Below, piece by piece: positions 48,760 through 62,181 of a DNA stretch of 64,000 nucleotides. Below the pieces are notes generated by a model. It worked only from the letters and a program-made list of their open reading frames with translations, did no database searches and had not been told where the DNA came from. Within the stretch, counting starts at the first letter, position 1, and the number at the start of each line of letters is the position of its first letter. Source of the stretch: a virus. The stretch is taken from the IMG/VR virus record IMGVR_UViG_3300031687_000001, positions 84,883-148,882 of that record, one strand, 5' to 3'. The translations under genes and the position numbers were made by a program.

Positions 48760-48788
48760 ATTATACCGTAAGGATCCTTACTTGTCAA
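48760..48788 (-). promoter_or_regulatory. Early promoter with perfect spacer palindrome
   Basis: TTGACA (48783-48788) and TATAAT (48760-48765) are 17 bp apart. The spacer holds GTAAGGATCCTTAC (48768-48781), a perfect 14-bp palindrome. Downstream follows AGTTACATAAGTTAATTAA, the leader shared by this promoter set. Confidence 0.88.
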
Positions 48789-48791
48789 GTA

Positions 48792-49634
48792 TTAAGTGGG
48801 AGGTCTACCTACACTTCTTTTATTTTTCATATCATCTGTTATACTATGCCACGTGTCGTATATACTCTTGTCCATTACTAGTTGTCTATCTGAATTTCTA
48901 AATGCCTGTATTATTCTTAGAATCTCTGTAGGCAGAAACTCATAATTAAAGAACCCAATGCTTAGGTCATTGCTAGGCGTATTGCAAAAACTTGTTTCTA
49001 TATTATTCGATATTATTTGTTCAGTTGGTGTGGTGTATATATAGTCTTGCAATTTGCGATTAACTGCAAATATATAATCGCTCCACTTGAAGTCTCCTAA
49101 CGGAAACTGTGACGAGTAGTGAATTTCTGGATTACATGTTGCTAGTGTAGGCATCTCATTATCACAATTGCTTAACGAATATATACTACTAATCATCTCC
49201 AGTCTGGGAGCCATGTCCCACCTAAACTTAATAATCCAATCGTACTCTCCTAACGATTTTGCTAATTTTATTCCTTCAAACCACATGTACGCTTGGGCAT
49301 AGTAATTATACATCACTACATCATCTGTGCTCATGGTGTCAATGATCAGTCGTTGTCTATTTTTATTTAGTACACCTGTCATTGTTTCATTTTTATAATC
49401 TGTTTCGAAATTAAGTTTCTTGACTGACTTAAACATATCTAATTTTTTTGAGAGTTTACAGTGATCCCATGTAATACCATAGTAATCAATATCCATTGCT
49501 CGACTACATTCATCATTAAATTTAGTATATTCGTCTGGAATGCACATGGGCGGAGTTGCAGTACTAGCATCATTCTCCCAAGATCTTGTTTCTCCTGTGA
49601 GTACTATTGCAACTCTTAATGGTGTATCAAGCAT
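48792..49634 (-). CDS. Glycosyltransferase-like protein, GQTR/RWD family member
   Basis: A 280-residue relative of the proteins encoded at 58.5-62.2 kb. LRVAIVLTGETRSWEN corresponds to their KIxICxSGQTRxW opening, and YDWIIKFRWDMAPRL to their DIYLRWRWDL block. The C-terminal conserved region is weaker. A sugar-transferase-like role is inferred from these motifs only. It overlaps the small gene above it by eight bases and ends next to the early promoter of the 48727 operon. Confidence 0.6.
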   Translation of the reverse strand: MLDTPLRVAIVLTGETRSWENDASTATPPMCIPDEYTKFNDECSRAMDIDYYGITWDHCKLSKKLDMFKSVKKLNFETDYKNETMTGVLNKNRQRLIIDTMSTDDVVMYNYYAQAYMWFEGIKLAKSLGEYDWIIKFRWDMAPRLEMISSIYSLSNCDNEMPTLATCNPEIHYSSQFPLGDFKWSDYIFAVNRKLQDYIYTTPTEQIISNNIETSFCNTPSNDLSIGFFNYEFLPTEILRIIQAFRNSDRQLVMDKSIYDTWHSITDDMKNKRSVGRPPT

Positions 49635-49842
49635 TGTTAATCATTCTCCCAAGATAGATCACTTCATTGGCTATCTTCGCGTCTAGTCCATAATACTCTG
49701 CAAATCTATCAACTGTAAGGAAATTATTAAAGTAATCTAAGAACAGATCTTCTAGGAATACACCAGACTTATTGTCTCCAGATACTGTTGTGTTGTAGTT
49801 GTCGATGGTAGTCTCAATGAGATCAGAAATTAATTCAGACAT
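49627..49842 (-). CDS. Small protein of unknown function
   Basis: A 71-residue, mostly helical protein (MSELISDLIETTIDNYNTTVSGDNKSGVFLEDLFLDYFNNFLTVDRFAEYYGLDAKIANEVIYLGRMINNA). I do not recognise it. The tail (FAEYYGLDAKIANEVIYLGRMI) resembles a helix-turn-helix-like end. It has a good ribosome site (CGGAG) and lies directly downstream of the conserved gene at 50249, so the three genes 50249-48792 probably share one early transcript. Confidence 0.6.
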   Translation of the reverse strand: MSELISDLIETTIDNYNTTVSGDNKSGVFLEDLFLDYFNNFLTVDRFAEYYGLDAKIANEVIYLGRMINNA

Positions 49843-49865
49843 AATATACTCCGTAGTGTTAAGGT

Positions 49866-50249
49866 TTATCCAGTGAATGAGTAAGGCTTGTTGAATGAAC
49901 CAATGTTCATACTAACGTAGTGTGAACGGTGGAAATAGTCAGTCATTGCATCAGACTCGTCGAAGAAGTCTGGGCCTTTCATAGCAGCATGTAGTTCGTT
50001 TAGAAAGTCTTTAATGGTAACGTTATCAGCATAATGGTTGTCTATGTGATACTCGTTCACTTCAAGATACTCACGTGCCCATTGTGCATTCTCTAAGTAC
50101 TGACTGAAGTCTAATGCACCACCTGATACTTTAACGACTAAGGTAGAATAGTTCTGAACAGAGATAGAACCTTTCATCTTGTACTTCTTCAACACTGCTT
50201 TGATCGCTGGTGCCAAACTCGCTTTGTCTTCTTTAGATACATACGCCAT
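49866..50249 (-). CDS. Conserved phage protein of unknown function (MAYVSKEDK family)
   Basis: A 127-residue protein beginning MAYVSKEDKASLAPAIKAVLKKYKMKGSISVQNYSTLVVKVSGGALDF, a pattern that recurs in many unrelated phages without known function. I use the ATG preceded by AAGGAA; a longer frame upstream would overlap the promoter and the leader. The gene has an early promoter of the palindrome class. No enzymatic motif is visible. Confidence 0.75.
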   Translation of the reverse strand: MAYVSKEDKASLAPAIKAVLKKYKMKGSISVQNYSTLVVKVSGGALDFSQYLENAQWAREYLEVNEYHIDNHYADNVTIKDFLNELHAAMKGPDFFDESDAMTDYFHRSHYVSMNIGSFNKPYSFTG

Positions 50250-50289
50250 GATATAATTCCTTGCTTTGATTAACTTAACTTCTATAACT

Positions 50290-50318
50290 ATTATAACGTA
50301 AGGAGCCTCACTTGTCAA
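50290..50318 (-). promoter_or_regulatory. Early promoter, palindrome class
   Basis: TTGACA (50313-50318) and TATAAT (50290-50295), 17 bp apart on the minus strand. On that strand the spacer reads GTGAGG-CT-CCTTAC, the class palindrome with one mismatch. Confidence 0.85.
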
Positions 50319-50342
50319 CCCCTTATAGTGAATTAATTGTAA

Positions 50343-50441
50343 TTAACTCTTGATAGCACGTACGATACGCAATGGTACTATCCACAATGAGTATGTAAGG
50401 AGTACTGATACTAAAACATAAACTAACAAGTCACTAGACAT
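50343..50441 (-). CDS. Tiny 32-residue membrane peptide with its own promoter
   Basis: MSSDLLVYVLVSVLLTYSLWIVPLRIVRAIKS is a single hydrophobic helix with a basic C-terminal end, so the N-terminus is probably outside. The ribosome site is AAAAGGAA six bases before the ATG, and a full sigma70-like promoter lies 38 bases upstream. A dedicated promoter for such a small frame argues that it is a real gene, perhaps an early membrane-acting toxin-like or host-takeover peptide. Confidence 0.55.
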   Translation of the reverse strand: MSSDLLVYVLVSVLLTYSLWIVPLRIVRAIKS

Positions 50442-50478
50442 AATGCGTTCCTTTTGGTTAACTCTTTATCTTGTAACC

Positions 50479-50507
50479 ATTATATAACAAGGAGCCTCAC
50501 TTGTCAA
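50479..50507 (-). promoter_or_regulatory. Early promoter, palindrome class (weak palindrome)
   Basis: TTGACA (50502-50507) and TATAAT (50479-50484), 17 bp apart on the minus strand. On that strand the spacer has GTGAGG-CT-CCTTGT, keeping only part of the palindrome. It drives the 32-residue membrane peptide. Confidence 0.8.
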
Positions 50508-50541
50508 CTATTTAAGTGCATTTAATCCCATTAATTTACTA

Positions 50542-50570
50542 TTGACACTACATCATTATACATATATAGT
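50542..50570 (+). promoter_or_regulatory. Sigma70-like promoter without the class palindrome
   Basis: TTGACA (50542-50547) and TATAGT (50565-50570), 17 bp apart. It faces the hairpin at 50591-50620 and has no clear gene before the next promoter at 50656, so it may drive a short RNA or add to expression of the 50716 operon. Confidence 0.6.
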
Positions 50571-50590
50571 ATATACACACCGCAGACAGC

Positions 50591-50620
50591 CGTACAGTAA
50601 GACTCAACAGTAACTGTACG
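50591..50620. repeat. 8-bp inverted repeat between two promoters
   Basis: CGTACAGT and ACTGTACG pair perfectly around a 14-nt loop. No T-run follows, so it is more likely an operator or RNA structure than a terminator. With the promoter at 50542 it could form the 5' end of a small RNA. Confidence 0.5.
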
Positions 50621-50655
50621 TATGACTATCATAGTAACTAATTGTATCAAATCAC

Positions 50656-50684
50656 TTGACAGGTAATGATCCTTAGTATATAAT
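50656..50684 (+). promoter_or_regulatory. Early promoter, palindrome class, of the nuclease-methyltransferase pair
   Basis: TTGACA (50656-50661) and TATAAT (50679-50684), 17 bp apart. The spacer is GTAATG-AT-CCTTAG, an imperfect palindrome. The shared leader AGTTACATAAGTTAATT follows, with AAAGGAAG before the ATG at 50716. Confidence 0.85.
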
Positions 50685-50715
50685 AGTTACATAAGTTAAT
50701 TTTAAAGGAAGTACC

Positions 50716-51285
50716 ATGAACACATCAACGTATGCAGACGACCTGCGTAATGCGATCAATCTAGTTGACTACACCAACCTAGTAGCCGCGTTAGGTACAC
50801 AGTTGAACTCACCCAAAGATCGCTTCGATAAGAGCGACATCATTGAACAATGTATTGACGTATACTCTAATGGTAGACTATCATGGGTAGACGAAGTAGG
50901 ACGTGATCATCGTGATAACAAACTCAACGTTGATCTAGAGTTCAAGTATGTAACCAATGGTATGTTCACCCCATTGAAACGCGAGAAGAAGATGGTCAAA
51001 GTTAAACTAAAGAATAGTCTAGGCTCATCTAAAGGTACTAACATAGATCATCCCGCTGACTTCTATATGATTGGTCAACAAGACGCTATCGCTATCATCA
51101 GTTGGGATGATGTCAAACCATTCCTAGTCGCTGTACCAGACGGCATAGAAAGTCACATACCGTTTGAGGCACTAACGTTCTTAATGAAGCCTACCAATGT
51201 GGTTAACAACAATACAATGAACCTAGACTATAAAGCAGTCAAAGCCCAAGCACAACGAAAGATCATAGAGGATGCTCGTGTATAA
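50716..51285 (+). CDS. Putative PD-(D/E)xK restriction-type nuclease
   Basis: A 189-residue protein directly upstream of, and overlapping, a DNA methyltransferase gene. WVDEVGRDHRDNKLNVDLEFKYVTN contains D73-x-E75-x-K77, a possible PD-(D/E)xK core, followed by VKVKLKNSLGS (residues 94-104) and ADFYMIGQQDAIAIISWDDV, an arrangement seen in type II restriction enzymes. The assignment rests on this motif reading and on the neighbour; it could instead be a nuclease relative used for host DNA breakdown or superinfection exclusion. It has a palindrome-class early promoter and AAAGGAAG ribosome site. Confidence 0.55.
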   Translation: MNTSTYADDLRNAINLVDYTNLVAALGTQLNSPKDRFDKSDIIEQCIDVYSNGRLSWVDEVGRDHRDNKLNVDLEFKYVTNGMFTPLKREKKMVKVKLKNSLGSSKGTNIDHPADFYMIGQQDAIAIISWDDVKPFLVAVPDGIESHIPFEALTFLMKPTNVVNNNTMNLDYKAVKAQAQRKIIEDARV

Positions 51286-52144
51286 CGTATATAACCAAAA
51301 CTGTATAGAAGGTATGAGAGACAACGTTGACTCTAACTCAGTCGATCTTATCTTCACAGATCCACCATACGGCATAGAGGGCGACAAACTAGATGCTCAC
51401 TATAACCGTGACGAATCCAATGTAGTTCCTGGCTATGTGGAAGTACCACTAGAGACATACGGACAGTTCTCATTAGATTGGATTACTCAGTGCGCTAGAG
51501 TATTACGTCCTGGTGGTTCAATGTATATCGTTAGCGGTTACACTAACCTACACCATATACTCAACGCATTACATTCTACTGATCTTACCGAAGTGAACCA
51601 TATCATAGCGGAATACTCTTTCGGTGTGAGTACTACGAAGAAGTATGTCAGTAGTCATTACCATGTATTGTTCTGGACTAAACCACCAGCAAAGAAACAA
51701 CAACGTACATTCAATACAAACGCATACTATGCTGATAGTAAAGATAGTTACCATGATAGACTAACTGTGCAGAAGATGCCTCGTAGTCATAAGCCGGGAC
51801 AAATAAAGAATAAGAATCAGTTGAGTGAAGACTTCATTGAAAAGTTCATCATGTATAGTTCCAATAGAGGCGACATAGTGATGGACCCGTTCTGTGGTGG
51901 TTTCACTACCGCTAGGACAGCATTGCGTTACGGTAGAGAGTTCGTAGGCTTTGAACAGAACACCAACGCATACGATACCTTCCTACCAACGTTGGCTAAT
52001 GTAGAGAGTAAAGATGATCCCACTGTGGTGTCACCTGATCCTGTAGAGTTAGCGAAGCGTGTTAAGATGCGTGAGGGTTGGAAGCGTGATAGAGCGAAGA
52101 AGAAGGCTGAACTACCCAGTGATCTGTTCAGTGAAGATAATTAA
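51272..52144 (+). CDS. DNA methyltransferase (beta-class, N6-adenine or N4-cytosine)
   Basis: A 290-residue SAM-dependent DNA methyltransferase. The catalytic TDPPYGI (D30-Y33) precedes the SAM-binding DPFCGGFTTA (residues 205-214), the order of beta-class enzymes; GREFVGFEQN follows. It probably methylates adenine N6 or cytosine N4 in a sequence-specific way. The start is ambiguous: the ATG at 51272 abuts AGAGG, while a GTG at 51278 has AGAGG at ideal spacing and removes two residues. It overlaps the putative nuclease gene by 14 bases, suggesting coupled expression. Confidence 0.9.
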   Translation: MLVYNVYNQNCIEGMRDNVDSNSVDLIFTDPPYGIEGDKLDAHYNRDESNVVPGYVEVPLETYGQFSLDWITQCARVLRPGGSMYIVSGYTNLHHILNALHSTDLTEVNHIIAEYSFGVSTTKKYVSSHYHVLFWTKPPAKKQQRTFNTNAYYADSKDSYHDRLTVQKMPRSHKPGQIKNKNQLSEDFIEKFIMYSSNRGDIVMDPFCGGFTTARTALRYGREFVGFEQNTNAYDTFLPTLANVESKDDPTVVSPDPVELAKRVKMREGWKRDRAKKKAELPSDLFSEDN

Positions 52145-52158
52145 TTTACAATAAACAC

Positions 52159-52187
52159 TTGACAAGCAATGTGCCTTACGTTATAAT
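52159..52187 (+). promoter_or_regulatory. Early promoter, palindrome class
   Basis: TTGACA (52159-52164) and TATAAT (52182-52187), 17 bp apart. The spacer is GCAATG-TG-CCTTAC, retaining the right half-site only. The shared leader AGTTAAGTAAGTTAAT follows. Confidence 0.87.
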
Positions 52188-52221
52188 AGTTAAGTAAGTT
52201 AATCAACGCAAGGAACAACAG

Positions 52222-52572
52222 ATGAAATACGCAATCTACCAAATCCAACTGTCAAACGCTCAATACGATCTTATCAATGCAGAAGGACACGATTCTGTTC
52301 ACAAGCAATCAATGAAACTAGACATGGGTCTTAGAAAAAATGACACTGGCGCTGTTGCTAAGGAAGCATTTGATTTAGGTTACTACACACATGTTTCAAA
52401 CATCGATGCGTATACATTAGAAGGTGTATTCCACGTAGGCAATATGGGACCAGAGACAGATATTGAAAGACTTTCTAGAATGAGTTCTATAAGTGTTGGA
52501 GATATTATTGAAGATGAAAATGGAAAGCAATCAGTTGTTGCTAACTACGGATTCCAAGAAGTTTCAAAATAA
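52222..52572 (+). CDS. Conserved phage protein of unknown function
   Basis: A 116-residue protein. The ends MKYAIYQIQLSNAQYDLINAEGH and GVFHVGNMG ... IERLSRMSSISVGDIIEDENGKQSVVANYGFQEV follow a pattern found in small proteins of several phages and plasmids; it has no known function to me. It is a single-gene unit between two early promoters, with ribosome site AAGGAA. Confidence 0.7.
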   Translation: MKYAIYQIQLSNAQYDLINAEGHDSVHKQSMKLDMGLRKNDTGAVAKEAFDLGYYTHVSNIDAYTLEGVFHVGNMGPETDIERLSRMSSISVGDIIEDENGKQSVVANYGFQEVSK

Positions 52573-52575
52573 AGG

Positions 52576-52604
52576 TTGACAAGTAAGACGTCTTACCTTA
52601 TAAT
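52576..52604 (+). promoter_or_regulatory. Early promoter with perfect but changed spacer palindrome
   Basis: TTGACA (52576-52581) and TATAAT (52599-52604), 17 bp apart. The spacer holds GTAAGACGTCTTAC (52583-52596), a perfect 14-bp palindrome in which one base in each half has changed together compared with GTAAGG-CCTTAC. Confidence 0.88.
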
Positions 52605-52635
52605 AGTTATATAAGTTAATTAAAGAGAGAACGAT

Positions 52636-53163
52636 ATGACTACTAGAAACCAACAAGTTAAGATGATTGCTGAAGAGATCAAAGAATCTGTTCGCCCGTT
52701 AATGGCTAAATGGGTAGATGATCGTGTCAAGTATCTTCTTAACACTAGAACATGGATGCAGTCAGATGAGACTCAATCTGCTATCGATGAAAAATATAAT
52801 AAGATGAAGCCAATTGCAGGCAGGTATTTTATGCGTTCCGATGCACGTAATAGTGTATATGAAAATGCTGGTATTAGTAAAGGTGACAAACAACTAATCG
52901 CTTACTACGGTCAAGATGATTGGTTACTTAAAGCCCAGAAGGATGCTGAGGCAAAACTATTAAAGATCGAAGTTGCTGTCTTTAAGAAAGTTACATTCGA
53001 TGTTGATACAGTTGAAAAGATACGTATCATTGAAGGGCGTGACGGTTACATGGAAGGTTCATGGAAATTGAATAACGATAAGGTGTTCTCATTTGAAACA
53101 TTTTACGCTGGTGGTTATAACATACAATGTCTTCACGTTCGCACCAAATATAAATTAAAATAA
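52636..53163 (+). CDS. Early protein of unknown function
   Basis: A 175-residue protein (MTTRNQQVKMIAEEIKESVRPLMAKWVDDRVKYLLNTRTWMQSD...), rich in charged helices in the first half and probably beta in the second (KVTFDVDTVEKIRIIEGRDGYMEGSWKLNNDKVFSFETFYAGGYNIQCLHVRTKYKLK). I do not recognise it. It is followed after 21 bases by a small gene whose leader nearly repeats its own (TTAATTAAAGAGAGANCGAT before the ATG). Confidence 0.65.
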   Translation: MTTRNQQVKMIAEEIKESVRPLMAKWVDDRVKYLLNTRTWMQSDETQSAIDEKYNKMKPIAGRYFMRSDARNSVYENAGISKGDKQLIAYYGQDDWLLKAQKDAEAKLLKIEVAVFKKVTFDVDTVEKIRIIEGRDGYMEGSWKLNNDKVFSFETFYAGGYNIQCLHVRTKYKLK

Positions 53164-53184
53164 ATTAATTAAAGAGAGACCGAT

Positions 53185-53385
53185 ATGATTACCGAACTTA
53201 AAGCACAGTTGGTACATGCACAAGATACATGGGCAGCGTCCGAAGAAGATTGGATGAATACGATCAATCGTGGTAGGTATTCAGCACAGTATAACGCTTA
53301 CATGAAGGCTGCTGCCGATTGGAAAATAGTTGTCGAGATACAGGCAGAAATAAAAGAATTAGAGAAAACTATGCATTGCGCGTAG
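53185..53385 (+). CDS. Small helical protein of unknown function
   Basis: A 66-residue helical protein (MITELKAQLVHAQDTWAASEEDWMNTINRGRYSAQYNAYMKAAADWKIVVEIQAEIKELEKTMHCA), probably a helical hairpin. Unrecognised. Its leader TTAATTAAAGAGAGACCGAT copies that of the 52636 gene but has no promoter, so it is co-transcribed with it. A terminator at 53462 follows. Confidence 0.62.
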   Translation: MITELKAQLVHAQDTWAASEEDWMNTINRGRYSAQYNAYMKAAADWKIVVEIQAEIKELEKTMHCA

Positions 53386-53625
53386 ACTAACACAACTATG
53401 CATACGGATCTTTACTGTAGTATTTCATAATAGCGAGTCTCATAATCTCGCATTCTCTTAGTGAACATTATTTAACTGTGATGTTCATTTTTTTTGTCTA
53501 AAATATATCCGTGACTATACACACCTCGATAGTCACACACGTGAAATCCATTTTTATATATGTTATAATAGACTGACGGACTACGTTCCCTGACCACGCA
53601 TTAAATAATTTAATTACAATAACAC
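53386..53625. other. Gene-free regulatory interval
   Basis: No convincing gene is visible here. It contains the terminator at 53462, the 8-bp inverted repeat GTGACTAT/ATAGTCAC at 53511-53536 with a 10-nt loop, and an extended -10 element TGTTATAAT (53561-53569) without a good -35. Confidence 0.5.
53462..53495 (+). terminator. Rho-independent terminator
   Basis: TGAACAT (53462-53468) pairs with ATGTTCA (53481-53487) around a 12-nt loop, followed by eight T. It closes the 52636-53385 unit. Confidence 0.75.
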
Positions 53626-53654
53626 TTGACAACCAAGGCTCCTTACGTTATAAT
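53626..53654 (+). promoter_or_regulatory. Early promoter, palindrome class
   Basis: TTGACA (53626-53631) and TATAAT (53649-53654), 17 bp apart. The spacer CCAAGG-CT-CCTTAC keeps the right half-site and most of the left. Confidence 0.87.
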
Positions 53655-53688
53655 AGTTATATAAGTTAATCAAGAGAAGGAAGTAATT

Positions 53689-54024
53689 ATGTCTTATTCA
53701 GCAATGGCAGTAACTGATTCACTAGGAAGGGGTTTGAAGATGGGGATGGACTTCTCTACTCTTTCCGTTGCAGAGGTAGGCGAACGCATTGACCCTTGGG
53801 TTAGAGAAGTATCATACAAAGGTAAGACTACTTTGTCTCAACTGTTCACTTCCGATAAATTCATTAAGTTCGACCTTCTTGCTCGTATCGTTCAACGTAC
53901 TGATAAAGTAGATATGAACGACGAAATCTCTCTATACACATCTGGTTACATCAAAGAACTTAGAATCGGCAACAAAAAGTATAGGACTGTTAACTCTTCA
54001 TACTTAGGTTCTCGTTCACTTTAA
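53689..54024 (+). CDS. Early protein of unknown function
   Basis: A 111-residue soluble protein (MSYSAMAVTDSLGRGLKMGMDFSTLSVAEVGERIDPWVREVSYKGKTTLSQLFTSDKFIKFDLLARIVQRTDKVDMNDEISLYTSGYIKELRIGNKKYRTVNSSYLGSRSL) with no motif I recognise. The second half looks beta-rich. It has its own palindrome-class promoter, ribosome site GAAGGAAG, and is a one-gene unit. Confidence 0.65.
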   Translation: MSYSAMAVTDSLGRGLKMGMDFSTLSVAEVGERIDPWVREVSYKGKTTLSQLFTSDKFIKFDLLARIVQRTDKVDMNDEISLYTSGYIKELRIGNKKYRTVNSSYLGSRSL

Positions 54025-54038
54025 ATTAATATAAAGCC

Positions 54039-54067
54039 TTGACAAGTAAGGCGCCTTATAGTATAAT
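54039..54067 (+). promoter_or_regulatory. Early promoter, palindrome class
   Basis: TTGACA (54039-54044) and TATAAT (54062-54067), 17 bp apart. The spacer contains TAAGGCGCCTTA (54047-54058), a perfect 12-bp palindrome. Confidence 0.88.
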
Positions 54068-54102
54068 AGTTATATAAGTTAATTAAGAGAAGGGAAGTTA
54101 TT

Positions 54103-54567
54103 ATGTCAAATGTATCTGATGCACATATCCTAAACGATCTAGAGTATCGTGGTATTGATGATTTCCTTTCTGAGATGGAAGTAGGACTAGTTGTCCCAAC
54201 TTGTTTCGTTGAGCGTATCAAGGCTATCATTAAAGAAAACTATGACATTGATCTAGTTGCTAAACCTGGCATGTTGGATAACCTACATGAAGGTGTGTTC
54301 TGTTCAATGCCTTACAATGATACTAGTGTAACACTAGTGTCTTCATACTGTCAAAGAGAAAATATTATGTCACGAATGGCTCCAATTACAAATGAATTAA
54401 CCATGCTGTACTCTATCGTAGATGATCTAACTAATCTACAAGGGTCTGCACTTCCTCTACAATACCAACGCATTGACGCGCTTATTGAGAAGTATGAATT
54501 AAAGGTTAAAGACGCACAGCAAACTTCATGGGAAGATGCTCGTAACGCATTCCATACACTAGACTAA
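54103..54567 (+). CDS. Early protein of unknown function
   Basis: A 154-residue protein (MSNVSDAHILNDLEYRGIDDFLSEMEVGLVVPTCFVERIKAIIKENYDIDLVAKPGMLDN...), largely helical, with no recognised motif or membrane segment. The C-terminal third (LPLQYQRIDALIEKYELKVKDAQQTSWEDARNAFHTLD) resembles a coiled-coil end. A one-gene unit with a palindrome-class promoter and ribosome site GAAGGGAAG. Confidence 0.65.
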   Translation: MSNVSDAHILNDLEYRGIDDFLSEMEVGLVVPTCFVERIKAIIKENYDIDLVAKPGMLDNLHEGVFCSMPYNDTSVTLVSSYCQRENIMSRMAPITNELTMLYSIVDDLTNLQGSALPLQYQRIDALIEKYELKVKDAQQTSWEDARNAFHTLD

Positions 54568-54585
54568 ATTAATTCCCGAAAAGAG

Positions 54586-54614
54586 TTGACAAGTAAGGCT
54601 CTTTACGTTATAAT
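54586..54614 (+). promoter_or_regulatory. Early promoter, palindrome class
   Basis: TTGACA (54586-54591) and TATAAT (54609-54614), 17 bp apart. The spacer is GTAAGG-CT-CTTTAC, the palindrome with one mismatch. Confidence 0.87.
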
Positions 54615-54641
54615 AGTTAATTAAATCAAAGAGAGAATATC

Positions 54642-54914
54642 ATGGCTATGCTAAACACTGTTCAAGATCAAATAGGTCGTATGTCTTCAGACGAACTAAA
54701 CAAAGTAGTAGAATCAGTTAAACTACGTAGGACTTACTTAGCCCGTCAAACAACTAACAGCATTGTCATCGGTGACAAAGTTCAATTCAATGGTGGACCA
54801 AAGCATGGGACTATCACTGGTAAAGTGGTTAAAGTCAACATCAAAACCATCGTAGTAGACTCTGGTCCTAATAACTGGAAAGTATCTGCCAACCTTATCT
54901 CTAAGGTATCATAA
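54642..54914 (+). CDS. Small SH3/KOW-like protein
   Basis: A 90-residue protein. Residues about 43-88 (IVIGDKVQFNGGPKHGTITGKVVKVNIKTIVVDSGPNNWKVSANLISKV) match the short beta-barrel pattern common in small T4-like phage proteins and KOW-type RNA- or protein-binding domains. The N-terminus is helical. A nucleic-acid or RNA-polymerase-binding role is plausible but unproven. The gene has a palindrome-class promoter and ends in a strong terminator. Confidence 0.7.
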   Translation: MAMLNTVQDQIGRMSSDELNKVVESVKLRRTYLARQTTNSIVIGDKVQFNGGPKHGTITGKVVKVNIKTIVVDSGPNNWKVSANLISKVS

Positions 54915-54932
54915 CCATTACAATAACACAAT

Positions 54933-54960
54933 AAAGGTATGCTAATCACATACCTTTTTT
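54933..54960 (+). terminator. Strong rho-independent terminator
   Basis: AAAGGTATG (54933-54941) and CATACCTTT (54949-54957) form a perfect nine-pair stem with a 7-nt loop, followed by a T-run. It ends the plus-strand early unit before the gene-free region. Confidence 0.85.
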
Positions 54961-55000
54961 ATATATAACAATAATATATAACAAGGCATCATACCTTAAT

Positions 55001-55417
55001 AAGTCATATCTCCCCTAGTAGAACTCCAATCATATACCAAGTAACGATACACATAACAATAAGTCAATCATCCCCTAGTACAACTCCAACAATAACTACA
55101 TTCTCCCCTACCATAACCCCACAACAATAGACGGACATAGTAATACATACTATAAGTCATATCTCCCCTAGTAGAACTCCAATCATATACACTATAACTA
55201 CATTCTCCCCTAGTAGAACTCCACAATATATACAATAGTATATCATAACCCCAGCAATATATACAATAGTATATCACACCTTAATAAGTCATATCTCCCC
55301 TAGTAGAACTCCAATATAATACACAATATACACAGTAAGGCACTATACATGGGACACCAACTGTAGGAGTAGTGTAACATACTATACAAGTCATATCTCC
55401 CCTAGTGTAACTCCAAT
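55001..55417. repeat. Irregular array of a 30-bp repeat in a gene-free region
   Basis: Five 30-bp units begin AAGTCATATCTCCCCTAGTA and end in ACTCCAAT or a close variant, at 55001, 55061, 55154, 55286 and 55388. Three partial copies of the CTCCCCTA...CTCCA or CATAACCCC kind lie near 55102, 55204 and 55244. A second motif, CAATATATACAATAGTATAT, appears twice (near 55224 and 55254). The strand shown has very few G. No open frame is convincing. On the opposite strand, each complete unit reads AGGGGAGATATG, a ribosome-site-plus-ATG pattern. The function is unknown. Confidence 0.8.
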
Positions 55418-55507
55418 GTCTACGCCTCACTGTAGGATTATAGTAGGATACCATAATGGGCTGTATAGTAGGGTTTTACCATAGCCTTTATATTTTTAGT
55501 CACACAG

Positions 55508-55646
55508 GGCGAGAGGGTGTTTAGATAATTATCAACGTTTAAGCATCATTCAGCCAGTATAGACTCATAATAGGGCTACAATAGGGCTATAAATCGGTAG
55601 TCTTTATATTTTAGTCCGGGTAAGGCGAGAGGGTGTTTAGATAATT
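55508..55646. repeat. Direct repeat pair of 23 bp, 116 bp apart
   Basis: GGCGAGAGGGTG followed by TTTAGATAATT occurs at 55508-55530 and 55624-55646. Each copy is preceded by a related CTTTATATTTTAGTC element (55486 and 55601), so the similar blocks extend to about 45 bp. No gene is visible. Confidence 0.72.
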
Positions 55647-55992
55647 TTGAGCCTTATTTTGTATATACAATTAATTAATAATTAAGCCGCAACAGTCTCC
55701 CAACGATGGTAGAATGATAGTGATACACTGCCTAACGCTGTGTGGTATGATATGAGAGCGTGTATGGGTGTGTGTTACGAGAGTAGAGTCTAGTGTAGTA
55801 TAGAGTGTTCCTAGTGTGTATAGGTTATAGTTTCTGTAGGGGAGAGTATAGTTATAGTTTAGTGTGAGTATGTTATAGAGAGAGTAGTTGTTTATGTAGT
55901 TGTTATGGTTATGCGTGTTAAGAAATATGATAAAAGAGGGTAAAAATTTTGGTGATGTATTTGTATTATATTTAATTAATTTAATTAAGTTA
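55647..55992. other. GT-rich gene-free tract
   Basis: The displayed strand becomes strongly GT-rich (for example GTGTGGTATGATATGAGAGC and TGTAGGGGAGAGTATAG), the reverse of the C-rich array to the left. TGTAGGGGAGAGTATAGTTA near 55836 is nearly the reverse complement of TAACTACATTCTCCCCTA near 55195, so the two halves share an inverted similarity. No convincing open frame is present. Confidence 0.55.
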
Positions 55993-56021
55993 TTGACAAG
56001 TGAGAGTCCTTACTGTATACT
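55993..56021 (+). promoter_or_regulatory. Early promoter, palindrome class (variant)
   Basis: TTGACA (55993-55998) and TATACT (56016-56021), 17 bp apart. The spacer GTGAGA-GT-CCTTAC is an imperfect version of the palindrome; the shared leader AGTTATATGAGTTAAT follows. Confidence 0.8.
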
Positions 56022-56053
56022 AGTTATATGAGTTAATGAAATGGGAAGAGATT

Positions 56054-56221
56054 ATGAAGGTATTATTGATTGGTATGTTGTTCAGTTTTATAGGTGTGTT
56101 ACTATATGTATTTTCGGTAGGATTTGGTCCTGAGGTATTTGGAGTAGTTTATATTCTAGTGATTCTATTGTTTGGATTGTATTTGTTAAGGTTGAAGAGG
56201 TTGGAAAATTCTGATGAATAA
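56054..56221 (+). CDS. Small two-helix membrane protein
   Basis: A 55-residue protein with two hydrophobic helices (VLLIGMLFSFIGVLLYVFSVGFG and VFGVVYILVILLFGLYLLRL) and a charged tail RLKRLENSDE. The start used has GGGAAGAG upstream of the ATG; an ATG 18 bases earlier is also in frame. It leads the transcript that probably continues into the six-gene tandem family. The function is unknown. Confidence 0.62.
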   Translation: MKVLLIGMLFSFIGVLLYVFSVGFGPEVFGVVYILVILLFGLYLLRLKRLENSDE

Positions 56222-56297: not shown

Positions 56298-56570
56298 ATG
56301 GCTGTCTTTATTGGAAGTATGAGGGCTGAATTGATTGAGCGTTATGGTGCGATAAAGCAGAGTGATGGAACTTATGTAGATGAATTTGGTGCGATTAGTT
56401 GGTTTAATGAAAAAGGTCAATGGCATCGTGAAGATGGTCCTGCTAGTATATTTGTAGACACTAGTGTTGAGTGGTTTTTCAATGGTGTAAATTATCCATT
56501 TAATCAGTGGTGTAAAATTGTAGGAATAAGTGAAGAGTATAAGATGATGTTGAGGTTACAGTATGGGTGA
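56298..56570 (+). CDS. HREDGPA-motif protein, tandem copy 1
   Basis: A 90-residue protein of a six-copy tandem family. The core is IKQSDGTYVDEFGAISWFNEKGQWHREDGPASI, then VEWFFNGVNYPFNQWCKIV, and the end YKMMLRLQYG. The repeated W/Y-N-x-x-G-x-x-H-R-E-D-G-P-A unit recalls short repeat motifs seen in phages and giant viruses, without a known function. I start it at the ATG preceded by GGGAG. Its last codons contain TTGAGGTTACAGT, which doubles as the ribosome site for copy 2, and it overlaps that gene by eight bases. Confidence 0.72.
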   Translation: MAVFIGSMRAELIERYGAIKQSDGTYVDEFGAISWFNEKGQWHREDGPASIFVDTSVEWFFNGVNYPFNQWCKIVGISEEYKMMLRLQYG

Positions 56571-56853
56571 TCGTTATGAGTATTGCGAGAGGACTAAGTT
56601 GTCACATCATATAGAAGATTATAAGGCTGAGTTGCAGAGTGATGGTTCGTATTTGCATAATGATGGTGATGTGTATTGGTATAAAGATGGTAATATACAT
56701 AGAGAAGATGGACCTGCTGTGATAAGGTGTGACACGGATGGTGGTTATGTACAGTGGCATTTGGGTAATAATAAGTATTCATTTGACGATTGGTGTAGAT
56801 TCACTAATTGTAGTGATGAACGTAAGATGATGTTGAGGTTACAGTATGGGTAG
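56563..56853 (+). CDS. HREDGPA-motif protein, tandem copy 2
   Basis: A 96-residue copy. The core LQSDGSYLHNDGDVYWYKDGNIHREDGPAVI is the clearest in the set, followed by YVQWHLGNNKYSFDDWCRFTNCSDERKMMLRLQYG. The start ATG lies inside the last codons of copy 1 (ATGGGTGA), with GAGG seven bases upstream, so translation is expected to be coupled. No membrane segment or catalytic motif is visible. Confidence 0.72.
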   Translation: MGDRYEYCERTKLSHHIEDYKAELQSDGSYLHNDGDVYWYKDGNIHREDGPAVIRCDTDGGYVQWHLGNNKYSFDDWCRFTNCSDERKMMLRLQYG

Positions 56854-57175
56854 CATCAGCATCAGAGTTAGTTCTTTGTGGGAGCCATATACGGGCAGTA
56901 GTACCAGATTGGAAGATCATATAAAAGATTGGAACGCGACACAATTAGAAGATGGTTCATGGTTGCATGATCACGGACATGTATATTGGTATAATGATCT
57001 TGGTGGTCTACACAGAGAAGATGGTCCTGCTATAACATCGCCACCGAACAAATATGGTGTAGTAGAAGTATGGTGGTATTTGAATGATAGTCATTGTCGT
57101 TCATTTGAAGAGTGGTTGATTAATGTTAAGATTAGTGATGAACGTAAGATGATGTATAGGTTGCAGTATGGATGA
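56846..57175 (+). CDS. HREDGPA-motif protein, tandem copy 3
   Basis: A 109-residue copy with a slightly longer N-terminus. Core: LEDGSWLHDHGHVYWYNDLGGLHREDGPAIT, then VWWYLNDSHCRSFEEWLINVKISDERKMMYRLQYG. It starts within the end of copy 2 and overlaps it by eight bases. The insertion PPNKYGVVEV between the motif and the second aromatic block distinguishes it from its neighbours. Confidence 0.72.
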   Translation: MGSISIRVSSLWEPYTGSSTRLEDHIKDWNATQLEDGSWLHDHGHVYWYNDLGGLHREDGPAITSPPNKYGVVEVWWYLNDSHCRSFEEWLINVKISDERKMMYRLQYG

Positions 57176-57449
57176 TTTTGTTAATAACTTTAATGCGAGG
57201 TACGATCATATAAAGAATTATAGTGCTGCGTTGCAGAGTGATGGTACGTGGTTGCATGATGATGGTGATGTGTTTCGTTACGATCATTTGGGTCGGGTAC
57301 ATTGTGAATTTGGTCCTGCTATATTGCATCATATAGAGGGTGATGGATGGTATTTAGATGGTATTGAGTATGGTACATTTGAAGAGTGGTTGATTGATAC
57401 TGCGGTTGATGAAGAGACAAAGATGATGTTGAGGTTGCAGTATGCGTGA
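57168..57449 (+). CDS. HREDGPA-motif protein, tandem copy 4
   Basis: A 93-residue, more divergent copy: the key motif reads VHCEFGPAIL instead of HREDGPA. Preceding it is LQSDGTWLHDDGDVFRYDHLG, and the end is DEETKMMLRLQYA. The loss of the RED triplet may mark an altered ligand or a decaying copy. It starts inside copy 3 and overlaps it by eight bases. Confidence 0.7.
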   Translation: MDDFVNNFNARYDHIKNYSAALQSDGTWLHDDGDVFRYDHLGRVHCEFGPAILHHIEGDGWYLDGIEYGTFEEWLIDTAVDEETKMMLRLQYA

Positions 57450-57759
57450 GAGTTATGGCGAGATAATGCAAAGGATAGCACTGAGTGATATGAAGATGTC
57501 CATGAGTGATAGGGATCGTCATATCAATGCGTATGATGCATGTCGTCAAAGTGATGGCTCATACTTGCATAGTGATCGCGATGTGTATTGGTATAATGAG
57601 GAGGGACAAGTACATAGAGAAGATGGTCCGTCTATTATATATAGGTTGGGTGGATTGTATTGGTATTTAAATGGTTTTGATTATACATTTAATGAATGGT
57701 GTAATACATTGAATAAGACAGATGAAGAGAAGATGTTGTTGAGGTTACAGTATGGTTGA
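57442..57759 (+). CDS. HREDGPA-motif protein, tandem copy 5
   Basis: A 105-residue copy with an extended N-terminus (MRESYGEIMQRIALSDMKMSMSDRDRHINAYDACR) before the core QSDGSYLHSDRDVYWYNEEGQVHREDGPSII and YWYLNGFDYTFNEWCNTLNKTDEEKMLLRLQYG. It overlaps copy 4 by eight bases. The core is close to copy 2, so the array has probably been reshuffled by recombination between repeats. Confidence 0.72.
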   Translation: MRESYGEIMQRIALSDMKMSMSDRDRHINAYDACRQSDGSYLHSDRDVYWYNEEGQVHREDGPSIIYRLGGLYWYLNGFDYTFNEWCNTLNKTDEEKMLLRLQYG

Positions 57760-58066
57760 TTATTACGATACAAATTGTTATAGTAGTGAATTTGCGTATC
57801 ATGAGGATTCGTTCAATATGGAATTGCAAGATGATGGTAGTTATTTACATGATGATGGTGAATATTTTTGGTATAATGAAGCAGGTGAAATACATCGTGA
57901 AGATGGTCCTGCTATTACCAATGAGTCAGATGTTCTTGATAGTAGATCTAGTAGATCTCACAGTTGGTGTCTTAATGGTGAGGATTTAAGTTTTAAAGAA
58001 TTTTTGGAGGTATCCCCAACGAGTGATGAGGTTAAGATGATGTTGAGGTTACAGTATGATAGATAA
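57752..58066 (+). CDS. HREDGPA-motif protein, tandem copy 6
   Basis: A 104-residue copy: LQDDGSYLHDDGEYFWYNEAGEIHREDGPAIT, a Ser-rich insert DVLDSRSSRSHS, then WCLNGEDLSFKEFLEVSPTSDEVKMMLRLQYDR. It overlaps copy 5 by eight bases. The family ends here: the next ATG in the usual position opens only a 12-codon frame (58056-58094), as if a seventh copy had been lost. Confidence 0.72.
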   Translation: MVDYYDTNCYSSEFAYHEDSFNMELQDDGSYLHDDGEYFWYNEAGEIHREDGPAITNESDVLDSRSSRSHSWCLNGEDLSFKEFLEVSPTSDEVKMMLRLQYDR

Positions 58067-58086
58067 ATTAATTGGAGTAAAAGAGT

Positions 58087-58149
58087 ATGCTTAGTACATT
58101 TGCATATGTAAGTCGTGAAGCATTAAAACATGCGCAGGGGTATGAATGA
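58087..58149 (+). CDS. Tiny 20-residue frame, possible gene remnant
   Basis: MLSTFAYVSREALKHAQGYE has GGAG eight bases before its ATG, and its stop overlaps the GDPD-like start (ATGA). It may be a leader peptide for coupling, or the remnant of a longer gene. It is listed because the signals are good despite the length. Confidence 0.35.
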   Translation: MLSTFAYVSREALKHAQGYE

Positions 58150-58571
58150 TATTTATAGCACATAGAGGTAACACCGAGGGACCTAGTTCGTCTGAGAATG
58201 AGTTGGAATATATGAAGCACGCCTACAACATGGGTTATGGTGTTGAGTGTGATCTACAGTTATTTAATAATAAGTTATATTTTGGACATGATGAGCCGCA
58301 GCGTCTTGTTGATCATAAATTTATAAGAAAAGATAATGTATTCTGTCATGCAAAGACAGTTGATGTGTTATCTATATTAATTAATTTAGGAGTTAATTGT
58401 TTCTTTCACGAGACCGATGAAGTAACGCTAACGAGTAGAGGACAGATATGGTGTTATCCTGGAGTACATCCAGACAATGAAAATGCTATCTGGTTAGATT
58501 TGCAAGGTAAATCATTGCCCGATGTAGTAGGAAATATCTATGGTATCTGTAGTGATTATAAGTTGTTATAG
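58146..58571 (+). CDS. Compact glycerophosphodiester phosphodiesterase-like protein
   Basis: A 141-residue protein with the GDPD/PLC-like active-site pattern: IAHRG (H6, R7), VECDLQL (E34, D36) and YFGHDEP (H48). The usual enzymes have 230-330 residues, so this is a compact version with the first half of the barrel best preserved. It could act on phospholipid head groups or glycerophosphate-containing surface polymers. The ribosome site GGGG lies just upstream, and the gene meets the end of a convergent gene with a six-base overlap. Confidence 0.75.
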   Translation: MIFIAHRGNTEGPSSSENELEYMKHAYNMGYGVECDLQLFNNKLYFGHDEPQRLVDHKFIRKDNVFCHAKTVDVLSILINLGVNCFFHETDEVTLTSRGQIWCYPGVHPDNENAIWLDLQGKSLPDVVGNIYGICSDYKLL

Positions 58572-59447
58572 AAATCGACTTTCCAAATAAGTCATAGAAA
58601 CACATCCAGGTAGTTTGCATACACCTTCCATTTTAATAAGATCGGTCATGCACCATGTCCAGAAAGTATGATATAATGCTCTATTCATCTGTAAACATTT
58701 TATATTATCGCCGATCATCGGATGGAAGCATAAATCTATTGCGTCAAATATATCGACAGCATTTATTTTTTCTTTTGCCAATGATGAGAAGCCGAAGAAT
58801 ATATCATCGACGCATGCCTTATATGCATGGTAAATTATAGTATTATTGCCGAATAAAATATTAAGATTACCAGCAGATGAAAACGATACTGAATGAAAAG
58901 ATGTAATTATATCTATTAAATATGGTGCCCAATAATCTATTACAAGATTATATTCATCATCACTGGTGTTGGAGTTATCTTTAGTGAACACAAGATCCCA
59001 TCTCCATCGCAGATATATATCATATCCGTCATCTGCTAGTTGGAATGATTTCCAACCAGATACATGTTGTCCATAGCCAGCGCGACAATTTTGTAATATT
59101 TTATTGATATGATCATCAGAAAGGTTATCATATTCTAATGTAGTCATATCAAACCCGTCTTGATCGCTAGGATCATAATTAAACAGATCACATAGTTCAT
59201 CATTAAGTGTTATGCGATTAATCCAATCTTTCTTAACCCAATCATCTATTATTACTTGATCTTCTATTATTAATTTTTTAAATTTCACATGTTCTTCGGA
59301 TGGCGGTATACAATGACTCCATGTATGGCCAACGACATCTACCTCATGCCCTGCTGCTTCTAAAGTAGATATAAAGTATGCTAAGTTTTTTGATGGATAG
59401 TCGTGCCAATCACGCGTCTGTCCGGATATGCATATTGCTATTTTCAT
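58566..59447 (-). CDS. Glycosyltransferase-like protein, GQTR/RWD family, tandem copy D
   Basis: A 293-residue protein. Family hallmarks are MKIAICISGQTRDWHDYPSKNLAYFISTLEAAGHEVDVVGHTWSHC, then YGQHVSGWKSFQLADDGYDIYLRWRWDLVF, and a late VDDIFFGFSSLAKEKINAVDIFDAIDL. The RWRWDL block is reminiscent of the acidic motif of GT-A enzymes. It is the last gene of a five-gene minus-strand operon that begins with the amidotransferase-like gene at 62766. Substrates are unknown. Confidence 0.65.
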   Translation of the reverse strand: MKIAICISGQTRDWHDYPSKNLAYFISTLEAAGHEVDVVGHTWSHCIPPSEEHVKFKKLIIEDQVIIDDWVKKDWINRITLNDELCDLFNYDPSDQDGFDMTTLEYDNLSDDHINKILQNCRAGYGQHVSGWKSFQLADDGYDIYLRWRWDLVFTKDNSNTSDDEYNLVIDYWAPYLIDIITSFHSVSFSSAGNLNILFGNNTIIYHAYKACVDDIFFGFSSLAKEKINAVDIFDAIDLCFHPMIGDNIKCLQMNRALYHTFWTWCMTDLIKMEGVCKLPGCVSMTYLESRFL

Positions 59448-59454
59448 AATATTT

Positions 59455-60348
59455 TTACTTCCTGAAATGTGATCTAGATGTTTCTATTTCTCTAAGGTAT
59501 CTAACGTCATTGTAAGTAGCACGAGCGATATTTGGGAATAGGGATGATCCTATTTCTCTAGTCATGTTTATATTTATATATGTCCATAGGAAGTGATATC
59601 CGCCACGTTTGCAATCGTATTCGTTATCACGTGCATATGTATCGATTGCATTGAATATATTGATATTATCTATTTTTTGTTTTGCATTATTTGTGAATAT
59701 AAAGTATTGATCATCGACGATCACTGCTGATGATGATTCTAGATGTATCTGTTCTCCGCAGAAATGGAATCCAGTATTTATTTTGGTTGCGTATTCAAAC
59801 AAATCATTTAAATATGCAATCCAATAATCTATGTTATTCTTATAATCCTCTTCGACTACTCCAGCATGTACTGTGCTAAAGATAAGATCCCACCGCCACC
59901 GTAGATATATATCAGAGTCATCATCTGCTAATTGGAATGATTTCCAACCAGAAATATGTTGTCCTATTTGGCTGCGAGTATACGCTAGCATGTCGTTTAT
60001 TTGATCTTTTGATAAGTTATTGTATTCTAATTTTTTGGTTGATTTTTCTTGATCTTCCATTGAATAATCAAAGAATTGTGTCATCTCATTATCGATTACG
60101 ATGCGTTTATTCCAGTCTTGTTTTACCCAATCTTCTATGACGACTTGGTCATCTACTACTAGTTTTTTAAACTGAACTATATCCTGTGAAGGGTATTGAA
60201 AAGGTTCATTGCGGTATGACCATGTGTGTGCAACCACGTCCACTGTATGTCCTAGTTGTTCTAGTTGTGAAACAAAATACCCTAAATTTTTAGATGGGTA
60301 TCCATCCCACGATCTAGTTTGTCCTGAGACGCATATTGTGATTTTCAT
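59455..60348 (-). CDS. Glycosyltransferase-like protein, GQTR/RWD family, tandem copy C
   Basis: A 297-residue copy: MKITICVSGQTRSWDGYPSKNLGYFVSQLEQLGHTVDVVAHTWSY, IGQHISGWKSFQLADDDSDIYLRWRWDLIFS and VDDQYFIFTNNAKQKIDNINIFNAID. It is closest to copy B, with which it shares the FIFTN(N/K)AKQKIDN block. The spacing to copy D is seven bases. A role in surface-sugar transfer is inferred for the family. Confidence 0.65.
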   Translation of the reverse strand: MKITICVSGQTRSWDGYPSKNLGYFVSQLEQLGHTVDVVAHTWSYRNEPFQYPSQDIVQFKKLVVDDQVVIEDWVKQDWNKRIVIDNEMTQFFDYSMEDQEKSTKKLEYNNLSKDQINDMLAYTRSQIGQHISGWKSFQLADDDSDIYLRWRWDLIFSTVHAGVVEEDYKNNIDYWIAYLNDLFEYATKINTGFHFCGEQIHLESSSAVIVDDQYFIFTNNAKQKIDNINIFNAIDTYARDNEYDCKRGGYHFLWTYININMTREIGSSLFPNIARATYNDVRYLREIETSRSHFRK

Positions 60349-60352
60349 TTAA

Positions 60353-61243
60353 TTATTCCTTGGCGTATTTACGTTGTGGTCGGTTGCCTCTATGAGGACT
60401 GTATGTGGTACGTGCAATAGGTGGAAGCATGTTAAGTCCTGATAGTTCGGTTAATCCAATATTAATAAATCTCCATAAATGTTGTTCTGCTGTTCGAGTC
60501 ATAGAATTGTCATTAATTACAGCATATGCATCTATGGCTTCAAATATATCGATATTATCTATTTTTTGCTTTGCTTTATTTGTGAATATAAAGTATTGAT
60601 CGTCTACAATTGCTTCTCCATCAGTCAATAAAACTGAAGACCCGCAAAAATAGAAATCGGCTGTCATGTGATTAGATGCGTATGTAAACAAATCATTTAG
60701 GTGATCAGTCCAGTAATTTATATTATTTTTGTAATCGTCTTCGTCCACGAACCGATTGAGTGTATTAAAGATAAGATCCCATCGCCATCGTAAATATATA
60801 TCTGAGTCACTGTCGGCTAGTTGGAATGATTTCCATCCAGAAATGTGTTGTGCGTATTCATTGCGTGACCATTCCAGCATATCGTTTCGTATGTATTCTG
60901 GTATACGATCATAAGCCATATCATCTCGTGGTGGGAAATCTGTATCATCATTATTATTATTTTGTGGTGCATACTCAAAATAATCGCATAGATCATTATC
61001 GATTATGACACGGTTATGCCAATCTTGTTTAATCCAATCATCAATCATCGACGAGTTATTTAATTCTATATTTTTAAATTGTACAAGATCTTGTGTTGGT
61101 GTATCGCAATTATCCCAAGTATGGCCTACTACATTTACAGTATGTCCCATTTGTTCTAACACGGAAATGAAATACTGTAAATTATTAGATGGATGATCAT
61201 TCCAAGATCTAGTCTGACCTGATACGCAGATGGATATTTTCAT
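60353..61243 (-). CDS. Glycosyltransferase-like protein, GQTR/RWD family, tandem copy B
   Basis: A 296-residue copy with MKISICVSGQTRSWNDHPSNNLQYFISVLEQMGHTVNVVGHTWDNC, YAQHISGWKSFQLADSDSDIYLRWRWDLIFN and VDDQYFIFTNKAKQKIDNIDIFEAID. A Pro/Asp/Asn-rich insertion (PQNNNNDDTDFPPRDDMAYDRIPEY) distinguishes it from copy C. It shares its first base position with the end of copy A (one-base overlap). Confidence 0.65.
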   Translation of the reverse strand: MKISICVSGQTRSWNDHPSNNLQYFISVLEQMGHTVNVVGHTWDNCDTPTQDLVQFKNIELNNSSMIDDWIKQDWHNRVIIDNDLCDYFEYAPQNNNNDDTDFPPRDDMAYDRIPEYIRNDMLEWSRNEYAQHISGWKSFQLADSDSDIYLRWRWDLIFNTLNRFVDEDDYKNNINYWTDHLNDLFTYASNHMTADFYFCGSSVLLTDGEAIVDDQYFIFTNKAKQKIDNIDIFEAIDAYAVINDNSMTRTAEQHLWRFINIGLTELSGLNMLPPIARTTYSPHRGNRPQRKYAKE

Positions 61244-62181
61244 TACATTTTTGCATCTATTAGCAATGCTTCTTCGTGTAATTCGTCTATTTTCATTTGA
61301 TTGCGATTTGCTTCATCTATTTTCAACTGAAAACGTGCTGGTCTATATGTCGCACGTACACATGCTGGTAGACTACATGATCCGTCTAGTTCAGGATATT
61401 GGGTCATTATATATGTCCACAATGTATGATATACTTCTCTGTTAAGCACATTGTCGTTTACGTTAGAGTATTCATGTATTGCATCAAATATATCTAAAAG
61501 ATCTATACGCTCTTTTGCGCGTGAGGTGAATGCAAAGAATGTATCATCGACGCATACACTATTCACTGCATGAACAATAGTAGATCCGCCGAAATGCACA
61601 TCGATTCCGTCGCTTGATGATCCCGTTAACATTGCACATTGTTCGAATAGGTCGTTTAAATAGTGCATCCAATAATCTATATTATCTTTGTATTCATCTT
61701 CTATTACACCTATTTGAAGTTTATTAAAGATAATATCCCATCTCCATCTGATATACAGGTGAGCATCATTGTCTGCCAATTGAAAAGATTTATATCCGGA
61801 AATATGTTGTCCATATGCATGACGACATCCATATGCGAGTTCGTATTGATCATCCTTAGATAGGTTGTCATATTCAAATGTGTTAAACTCATGACTTTCC
61901 CGTCCATGGTAGTCGAATCTTTCAGCAACCAAATCACTAATAGAAAGTCGGTGCATCCAATCTTCCTTGACCCATTCTTCTATCATTGCCTGATCATCGA
62001 TTACAAGTTTATCAAACGTCACGTGGTGTTGTAAAGGTACTTCGCAATGTGACCACGTATGTCCTACTACTTTCACTTGATGTCCAAAATCTTTTAAGCG
62101 TGTAATAAAGTATCCTAAATTTTTAGATGGGTAGTTGTTCCAGTCGCGGGTCTCGCCAGATATGCATATTGTTATTTTCAT
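61243..62181 (-). CDS. Glycosyltransferase-like protein, GQTR/RWD family, tandem copy A
   Basis: A 312-residue copy, the first of the tandem set: MKITICISGETRDWNNYPSKNLGYFITRLKDFGHQVKVVGHTWSHC, YGQHISGYKSFQLADNDAHLYIRWRWDIIFN and VDDTFFAFTSRAKERIDLLDIFDAIH. It is most like copy D in several blocks (HTWSHC, MTQ/CMT end). A charged C-terminal helix (KIDEANRNQMKIDELHEEALLIDAKM) is unique to it. Confidence 0.65.
   Translation of the reverse strand: MKITICISGETRDWNNYPSKNLGYFITRLKDFGHQVKVVGHTWSHCEVPLQHHVTFDKLVIDDQAMIEEWVKEDWMHRLSISDLVAERFDYHGRESHEFNTFEYDNLSKDDQYELAYGCRHAYGQHISGYKSFQLADNDAHLYIRWRWDIIFNKLQIGVIEDEYKDNIDYWMHYLNDLFEQCAMLTGSSSDGIDVHFGGSTIVHAVNSVCVDDTFFAFTSRAKERIDLLDIFDAIHEYSNVNDNVLNREVYHTLWTYIMTQYPELDGSCSLPACVRATYRPARFQLKIDEANRNQMKIDELHEEALLIDAKM

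Follow-up and report, generated by a model that had tools for sequence, protein, structure and literature searches.

Tandem paralogues of a large phage in which the 3' end of each gene carries the predicted ribosome-binding site and start codon of the next

Introduction

Translational coupling through short gene overlaps, or termination-reinitiation, has been described for adjacent prokaryotic genes; three overlap spacings are enriched in prokaryotes, 8 nt (-8) among them (PMC12548453), and short distances, from -8 to +10, are associated with both termination-reinitiation and heteromeric complexes (PMC10666635). The phage gene array described here resembles such systems in its unidirectional -8 overlaps, in the location of the Shine-Dalgarno (SD) sequence inside the upstream coding sequence, and in its probable common transcript. 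It differs from known coupled pairs in that the genes are paralogues and in that the same junction occurs five times in a row (as many as 11 times in the related array L094), so that the duplication unit brings its own coupling signal. No description of the HREDGPA motif of these proteins, or of coupled paralogue arrays, was found in the literature.

At the protein level the closest described systems include the MORN proteins, which the family resembles in having repeats of approximately 22 residues that are predicted to form beta hairpins; a four-repeat relative matches MORN4, Trypanosoma brucei MORN1 and further MORN proteins of the PDB. The model of a window protein matches giant-virus repeat proteins, namely a MORN-annotated protein of Harvfovirus (E 0.0022) and Mimivirus R871, less strongly than it matches phage proteins. 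However, the family has another consensus (HREDGPA) and a C-terminal helical cap, and its TM scores against MORN structures are low (0.3-0.4).

This paper describes the array, its relatives in other phages, and the explanations that may account for its junctions. The window, i.e., the whole stretch of DNA analysed, comprises the final 64 kb of an IMG/VR record of 148,882 bases. A 1,018-aa protein encoded at 7352 matches baseplate wedge proteins of jumbo phages (39% over 97% for Pseudomonas phages PA5oct and Paride; 38% for Salicola phage SCTP-2), which indicates a large myovirus-like phage.

Results

Six paralogues joined by identical overlaps

Among the open reading frames (ORFs) of the 64-kb window, six paralogues of 90-109 aa lie head to tail in one direction at 56298-58066:

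56298..56570, plus strand: copy 1, 90 aa, with its own SD (GGAG) 7 nt before the ATG
56563..56853, plus strand: copy 2, 96 aa, overlapping copy 1 by 8 nt, GAGG 7 nt before the ATG
56846..57175, plus strand: copy 3, 109 aa, overlapping copy 2 by 8 nt, GAGG 7 nt before the ATG
57168..57449, plus strand: copy 4, 93 aa, with the divergent motif HCEFGPA, overlapping copy 3 by 8 nt, weak SD (TAGG)
57442..57759, plus strand: copy 5, 105 aa, overlapping copy 4 by 8 nt, AlphaFold2 pLDDT 90.6
57752..58066, plus strand: copy 6, 104 aa, overlapping copy 5 by 8 nt, GAGG and ATG in its tail with no paralogue after it

The initial annotation had described six overlapping paralogues in which the tail of each gene supplies the ribosome site of the next, and the ORFs, overlaps and SD positions bear this out. 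The five overlaps are each of exactly 8 nt, the T|ATG lying within the codons CAG-TAT-G, and junctions 1, 2, 4 and 5 read GAGG-TTACAGT-ATG or GAGG-TTGCAGT-ATG, with a spacing of 7 nt. The end of copy 3 reads TATAGGTTGCAGT, as had been noted, and carries TAGG instead of GAGG. Identity to copy 5 ranges from 41 to 48%, and 17 alignment columns are invariant among the six. The overlap is the same at every junction despite N-termini that vary by up to approximately 20 codons; the bodies differ at more than half of their residues and the overlap never slips. The KMMLRLQYG ending attributed to all six is alike throughout but not identical, since copies 3 to 6 deviate (KMMYRLQYG, KMMLRLQYA, KMLLRLQYG and KMMLRLQYDR, respectively).

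Junction strength and codon choice

The predicted anti-SD pairing energy is -6.3 kcal/mol at four junctions and -3.1 kcal/mol between copies 3 and 4; the median at random internal positions of the window ORFs is -0.9 kcal/mol, and 55% of the starts of long window ORFs reach -4 kcal/mol. Many genes in the genome of this virus overlap and carry the SD in the upstream gene, and the -8 geometry with such an SD also joins two pairs of unremarkable genes in the window, with starts at 24475 and 26244. A single junction of this type is therefore ordinary; its repetition in an array of paralogues is not.

The DNA of the tail doubles as SD and next start, with a codon choice biased towards the SD. Of the 1,728 synonymous ways to encode EKMMLRLQ, none gives a better energy than -6.3 kcal/mol (P 0.009 for a single tail, weighted by codon usage). 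The tail arginine codon is AGG in six of six copies, whereas the bodies of the same genes use AGG for 7 of their 28 arginines (Fisher p 0.0013) and the other window genes for 5.7% of theirs. Over the tail as a whole, synonymous identity (0.77) is only slightly above that of the bodies (0.71). The latter is also above random, implying that common ancestry accounts for some of the codon agreement in the tails; moreover, AAG for lysine and CAG for glutamine are fixed in the tails without an obvious SD role. Overall, the codon choice in the tail looks selected for coupling, and the junction sequences suggest that coupling between adjacent copies operates.

Protein family and fold

The proteins contain one to several units of approximately 22 aa (xDGxxxWYxNGxxHRxDGPAxxx), modelled as MORN-like beta hairpins and closed by a hairpin-helix-helix cap that ends in [KR]LQYG. 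For the four-repeat relative the model has a pLDDT of 95.6, and MORN proteins make up most of its best PDB matches (E 0.0075-0.1, TM 0.3-0.4, probability up to 0.96). A single window copy had no significant structural match in the PDB; its best structural matches in BFVD are uncharacterised Caudovirales or uncultured phage proteins (E 7e-7 to 5e-4). Structural matches in BFVD also include proteins of Agrobacterium phage Atu_ph07, in which five places were detected by tblastn; the annotation and paper of this phage list hypothetical proteins only and do not mention the repeats.

Profile searches of the six window proteins in Pfam, PHROGs, NCBIfam and PADLOC returned nothing above threshold, and none of 24 sequences matched the PADLOC anti-phage defence models. 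The Pfam MORN profile matched none of the six window proteins and 21 relatives. The Pfam domain DUF6745 (206 residues) matched 14 of the 21 relatives weakly (A3), below its gathering cut-off, and none of the six window proteins; in the first relative the match covers the W..G..HR.DGPA part (19 positions; 24.0 bits against a cut-off of 27). A profile search of PDB sequences yielded only chance matches, copy 5 had no tblastn match among named phages, and 53 stretches of bacterial genome contigs that match the tail peptide encode no relative.

Conservation of the ending as protein and as RNA

A scan of IMG/VR with a generalised tail yielded 18 further stretches, several of which are the same viruses from different samples, and in these a [DE]EKVMxKLQYG ending is kept at junctions as well as at array ends. 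Approximately 14 array-terminal relatives keep [KM][VMI][MI]x[KR]L[QK]Y-type ends while no paralogue starts at the tail ATG. The closest relative is L008, whose junction copy reads TTA AGG TTA CAG TAT (SD energy -3.9) and whose last copy encodes KMLLRLQYG as CTA CGG TTG CAG TAC (-2.4), which contains neither SD nor ATG; this single instance shows the separation of peptide and ribosome site that the initial annotation had called for as a check.

The 8-nt overlap of the window recurs in the arrays L093 and L094, which are runs of at least 10 and at least 12 copies, respectively. Across their 20 junctions the peptide and the overlap are kept with no SD (tail AAG/AAA-TTG-CAA, energy -0.5 to +1.3), whereas SDs do precede other genes of these contigs (median energy -4.0 and -3.1, respectively). 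Alternative starts were considered and rejected, as the ATG at -8 is the sole early in-frame start in nearly all translations. The overlap in these arrays thus works, if at all, without an SD, and the architecture does not depend on the SD.

In AlphaFold2 models the tail forms a C-terminal helix that is predicted with confidence both in copy 5 (residues 94-104, pLDDT approximately 97) and in an L093 relative (residues 104-114). Together, the terminal copies, the SD-less arrays and the helix models indicate that the KMMLRLQYG-type ending is conserved as protein, mainly as part of the fold, and that its codons are probably tuned as RNA. The suggestion of the initial annotation that the amino-acid ending is itself kept for coupling is not upheld, since the peptide persists in the SD-less arrays and where no paralogue follows, which is largely the pattern that the annotation itself had named as refuting it.

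Arrays in other phages

Relatives were detected at 78 loci in a first scan, many of them arrays, and most arrays repeat a junction geometry particular to them (the tallies reflect mechanical start choices, and the arrays L029 and L049 are irregular):

KLQYG tails: junction -8
L056/L071: junction -4, with invariant ATGATCAC
L039: junction -11, HYE[AT] tails
L050: junction -1, FLRTFGxxL tails
L031, L048 and L076: junction mostly +3 or +4, after LKALW tails
L022: junction +4, after KW[GS] tails
L063: junction +22 to +26, with AAGGA

These lineage-specific junctions indicate that the coupled-array architecture probably arose or was retuned several times. In L056/L071 (a 402-kb contig) the genes are joined by the start-stop overlap ATGATCAC, with GAGG or GGAGG at most joints; a strong SD (to -12.6) is present at most of 16 junctions while the residues vary (EEG, ERP, ERG, ERR, KEE, EGA), which makes these arrays a better case for a tail conserved at the DNA level. 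On this contig (IMGVR_UViG_3300028422_000919 and its twin) the region 85-109 kb holds at least 25 HREDGPA-type ORFs within 24 kb, in two stretches approximately 4 kb apart, many of them joined by ATGATCAC. In many arrays (L086, L087, L089 and L099-L101), a conserved TTGACACCATRACGYCTTGCTGCTATAAAGAACAAGTAAG-like sequence follows the last copy, which is either an intergenic signal or a short peptide (MVDTITSCCYKEQVS).

Duplication history

In a tree based on 65 columns, copies 1 and 2 pair, as do copies 3 and 4, and copy 5 groups weakly with the second copy of L008; the branches are long. A second record of the same virus (192,024 bases) shows 99.98% identity across a compared stretch of 20 kb, and no copy-number difference was found between the two assemblies, each containing six copies. 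Tandem duplication of neighbours, as had been proposed, is thus supported by the tree, but the proposal that duplication is ongoing was rejected for the window array for lack of recent copies: the long branches and neighbour pairing indicate an old array that is not freshly expanding.

Promoter and flanking genes

The array is flanked by the following features:

55993..56021, plus strand: sigma-70-like promoter TTGACA-17-TATACT (11/12 match), with spacer and downstream sequence common to other copies of this promoter
56036..56221, plus strand: small ORF of 61 aa with hydrophobic stretches, the first gene after the promoter, no PHROG match
58056..58094, plus strand: 12-codon ORF MIDKLIGVKEYA, opened by the ATG in the tail of copy 6 (11-nt overlap)
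58087..58149, plus strand: 20-codon ORF MLSTFAYVSREALKHAQGYE, starting 8 nt inside the MIDKLIGVKEYA ORF and overlapping at its end, by ATGA, the gene at 58146
58146..58571, plus strand: 141-aa protein, phrog_34507 (E 1.9e-17, function not annotated), no Pfam match

The site at 55993 is the probable promoter of the array operon. Approximately 10 near-perfect TTGACA-17-TATAAT promoters occur on both strands at 48788-56021, sharing the palindromic spacer AAGTAAGGCTCCTTACGT and the downstream sequence AGTTATATAAGTTA; they are probably a phage early promoter family, perhaps with an operator inside the spacer. A further site at 62839 matches 12/12 and is without most of the shared spacer. The membership of the 55993 promoter in this set (48.5-56 kb) suggests early expression of a host-interaction region, in which the array may provide matched co-expression of diversified modules. 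An AT-rich region with repeated CTCCCCTAGTAGAACTCC units (55068-55500) lies between the early genes and the array.

Downstream, the MIDKLIGVKEYA ORF is either the relic of a seventh copy or a relay ORF, and it is possible that the two mini-ORFs (58056-58149) relay coupling from copy 6 into the gene at 58146, of which the N-terminus IAHRGN presumably resembles glycerophosphodiester phosphodiesterase. Beside the array, four tandem ORFs of 293-312 aa occupy 58566-62181 on the minus strand; the three of which the full sequence was read are paralogous, with the N-terminus MKI[ATS]IC[IV]SGQTR, and the one ORF tested had no Pfam match. Elsewhere in the same virus, L103 (G001:179500-183500, locus 1663-2261) is a distant solo relative (...HRLDGPAHIVYN...EEIFIFKMAKV), of which the stop overlaps (ATGA) a small gene ending in DAMMFKMANS; these are two different proteins with a similar ending.

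Discussion

The explanation that we favour, with moderate confidence, is that of an early-type operon in which six old tandem paralogues form a translational relay, the peptide of the ending being kept by protein function and its codons for the SD and start. A ribosome finishing one copy would stop 8 nt beyond the start of the next, and the strong SD in the last codons would lie within its reach, enabling re-initiation. The cap peptide would be maintained by its role in the protein, and the synonymous codons TTG-AGG-TTA/G-CAG-TAT by their role as SD and start. With the entire junction inside the conserved 3' end, a gene duplicated in tandem would bring a working junction along automatically, and the array could grow without loss of coupling. 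Such coupling may serve to match the expression of partner proteins that form assemblies or work jointly in the host early in infection.

The tails could instead be identical as shared homologous 3' ends, homogenised by recombination or gene conversion, with SD and overlap copied along and no extra selection, which appears somewhat unlikely. Neighbouring copies do pair in the tree, copies 3 and 4 share a TTG variant, and exact blocks spanning the junction are frequent in L093/L094 (one of 67 bp, from -55 to +12, and several of 36-47 bp that start 18-33 nt before the stop and end at most 30 nt after it), which is compatible with recombination there. However, some identical blocks in these arrays lie inside the bodies, off the junctions, the window overlap never slips between bodies that differ at more than half of their residues, and copying alone does not explain the SD kept at most L056/L071 joints while the residues change. 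It is more doubtful still that the SD is incidental, such that the overlap alone drives termination-reinitiation and AGG is kept otherwise, e.g., for rare-codon slowing before termination. The rarity of AGG in the window fits this proposal, as do the 20 SD-less junctions that keep the overlap although SDs are used elsewhere in their contigs, but the window SD energy is the maximum possible for the peptide and another array lineage conserves the SD at most junctions. Conservation of the entire ending, residues included, for translation coupling is the strong form of what the initial annotation proposed, and although peptide, SD and start coincide at all five junctions, it is highly improbable: the ending is a confident helix in the models, and the proposal is already largely refuted by the terminal copy of L008 and by L093/L094, as well as by the other array-terminal copies that keep the peptide.

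Beyond the favoured relay of old paralogues, HREDGPA arrays might be self-propagating coupling cassettes, in which a 3' end that evolved in several phage lineages to carry SD and next start in a fixed geometry would let any unequal crossover generate automatically co-translated variants, and so a stoichiometric set of diversified MORN-like modules for host takeover or counter-defence; this broader proposal is speculative and on balance unlikely.

The arrays point to a widespread phage protein family, without a name in Pfam, PHROGs or NCBIfam, which was repeatedly amplified into coupled arrays. One short overlapped sequence here separates protein-level from RNA-level conservation, and nature provides the controls: peptide and overlap with an SD (the window), the same without an SD (L093/L094), and the peptide without a following gene (the last copy of L008 and others). 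The family thereby offers a tractable system for the joint evolution of gene amplification and translational coupling.
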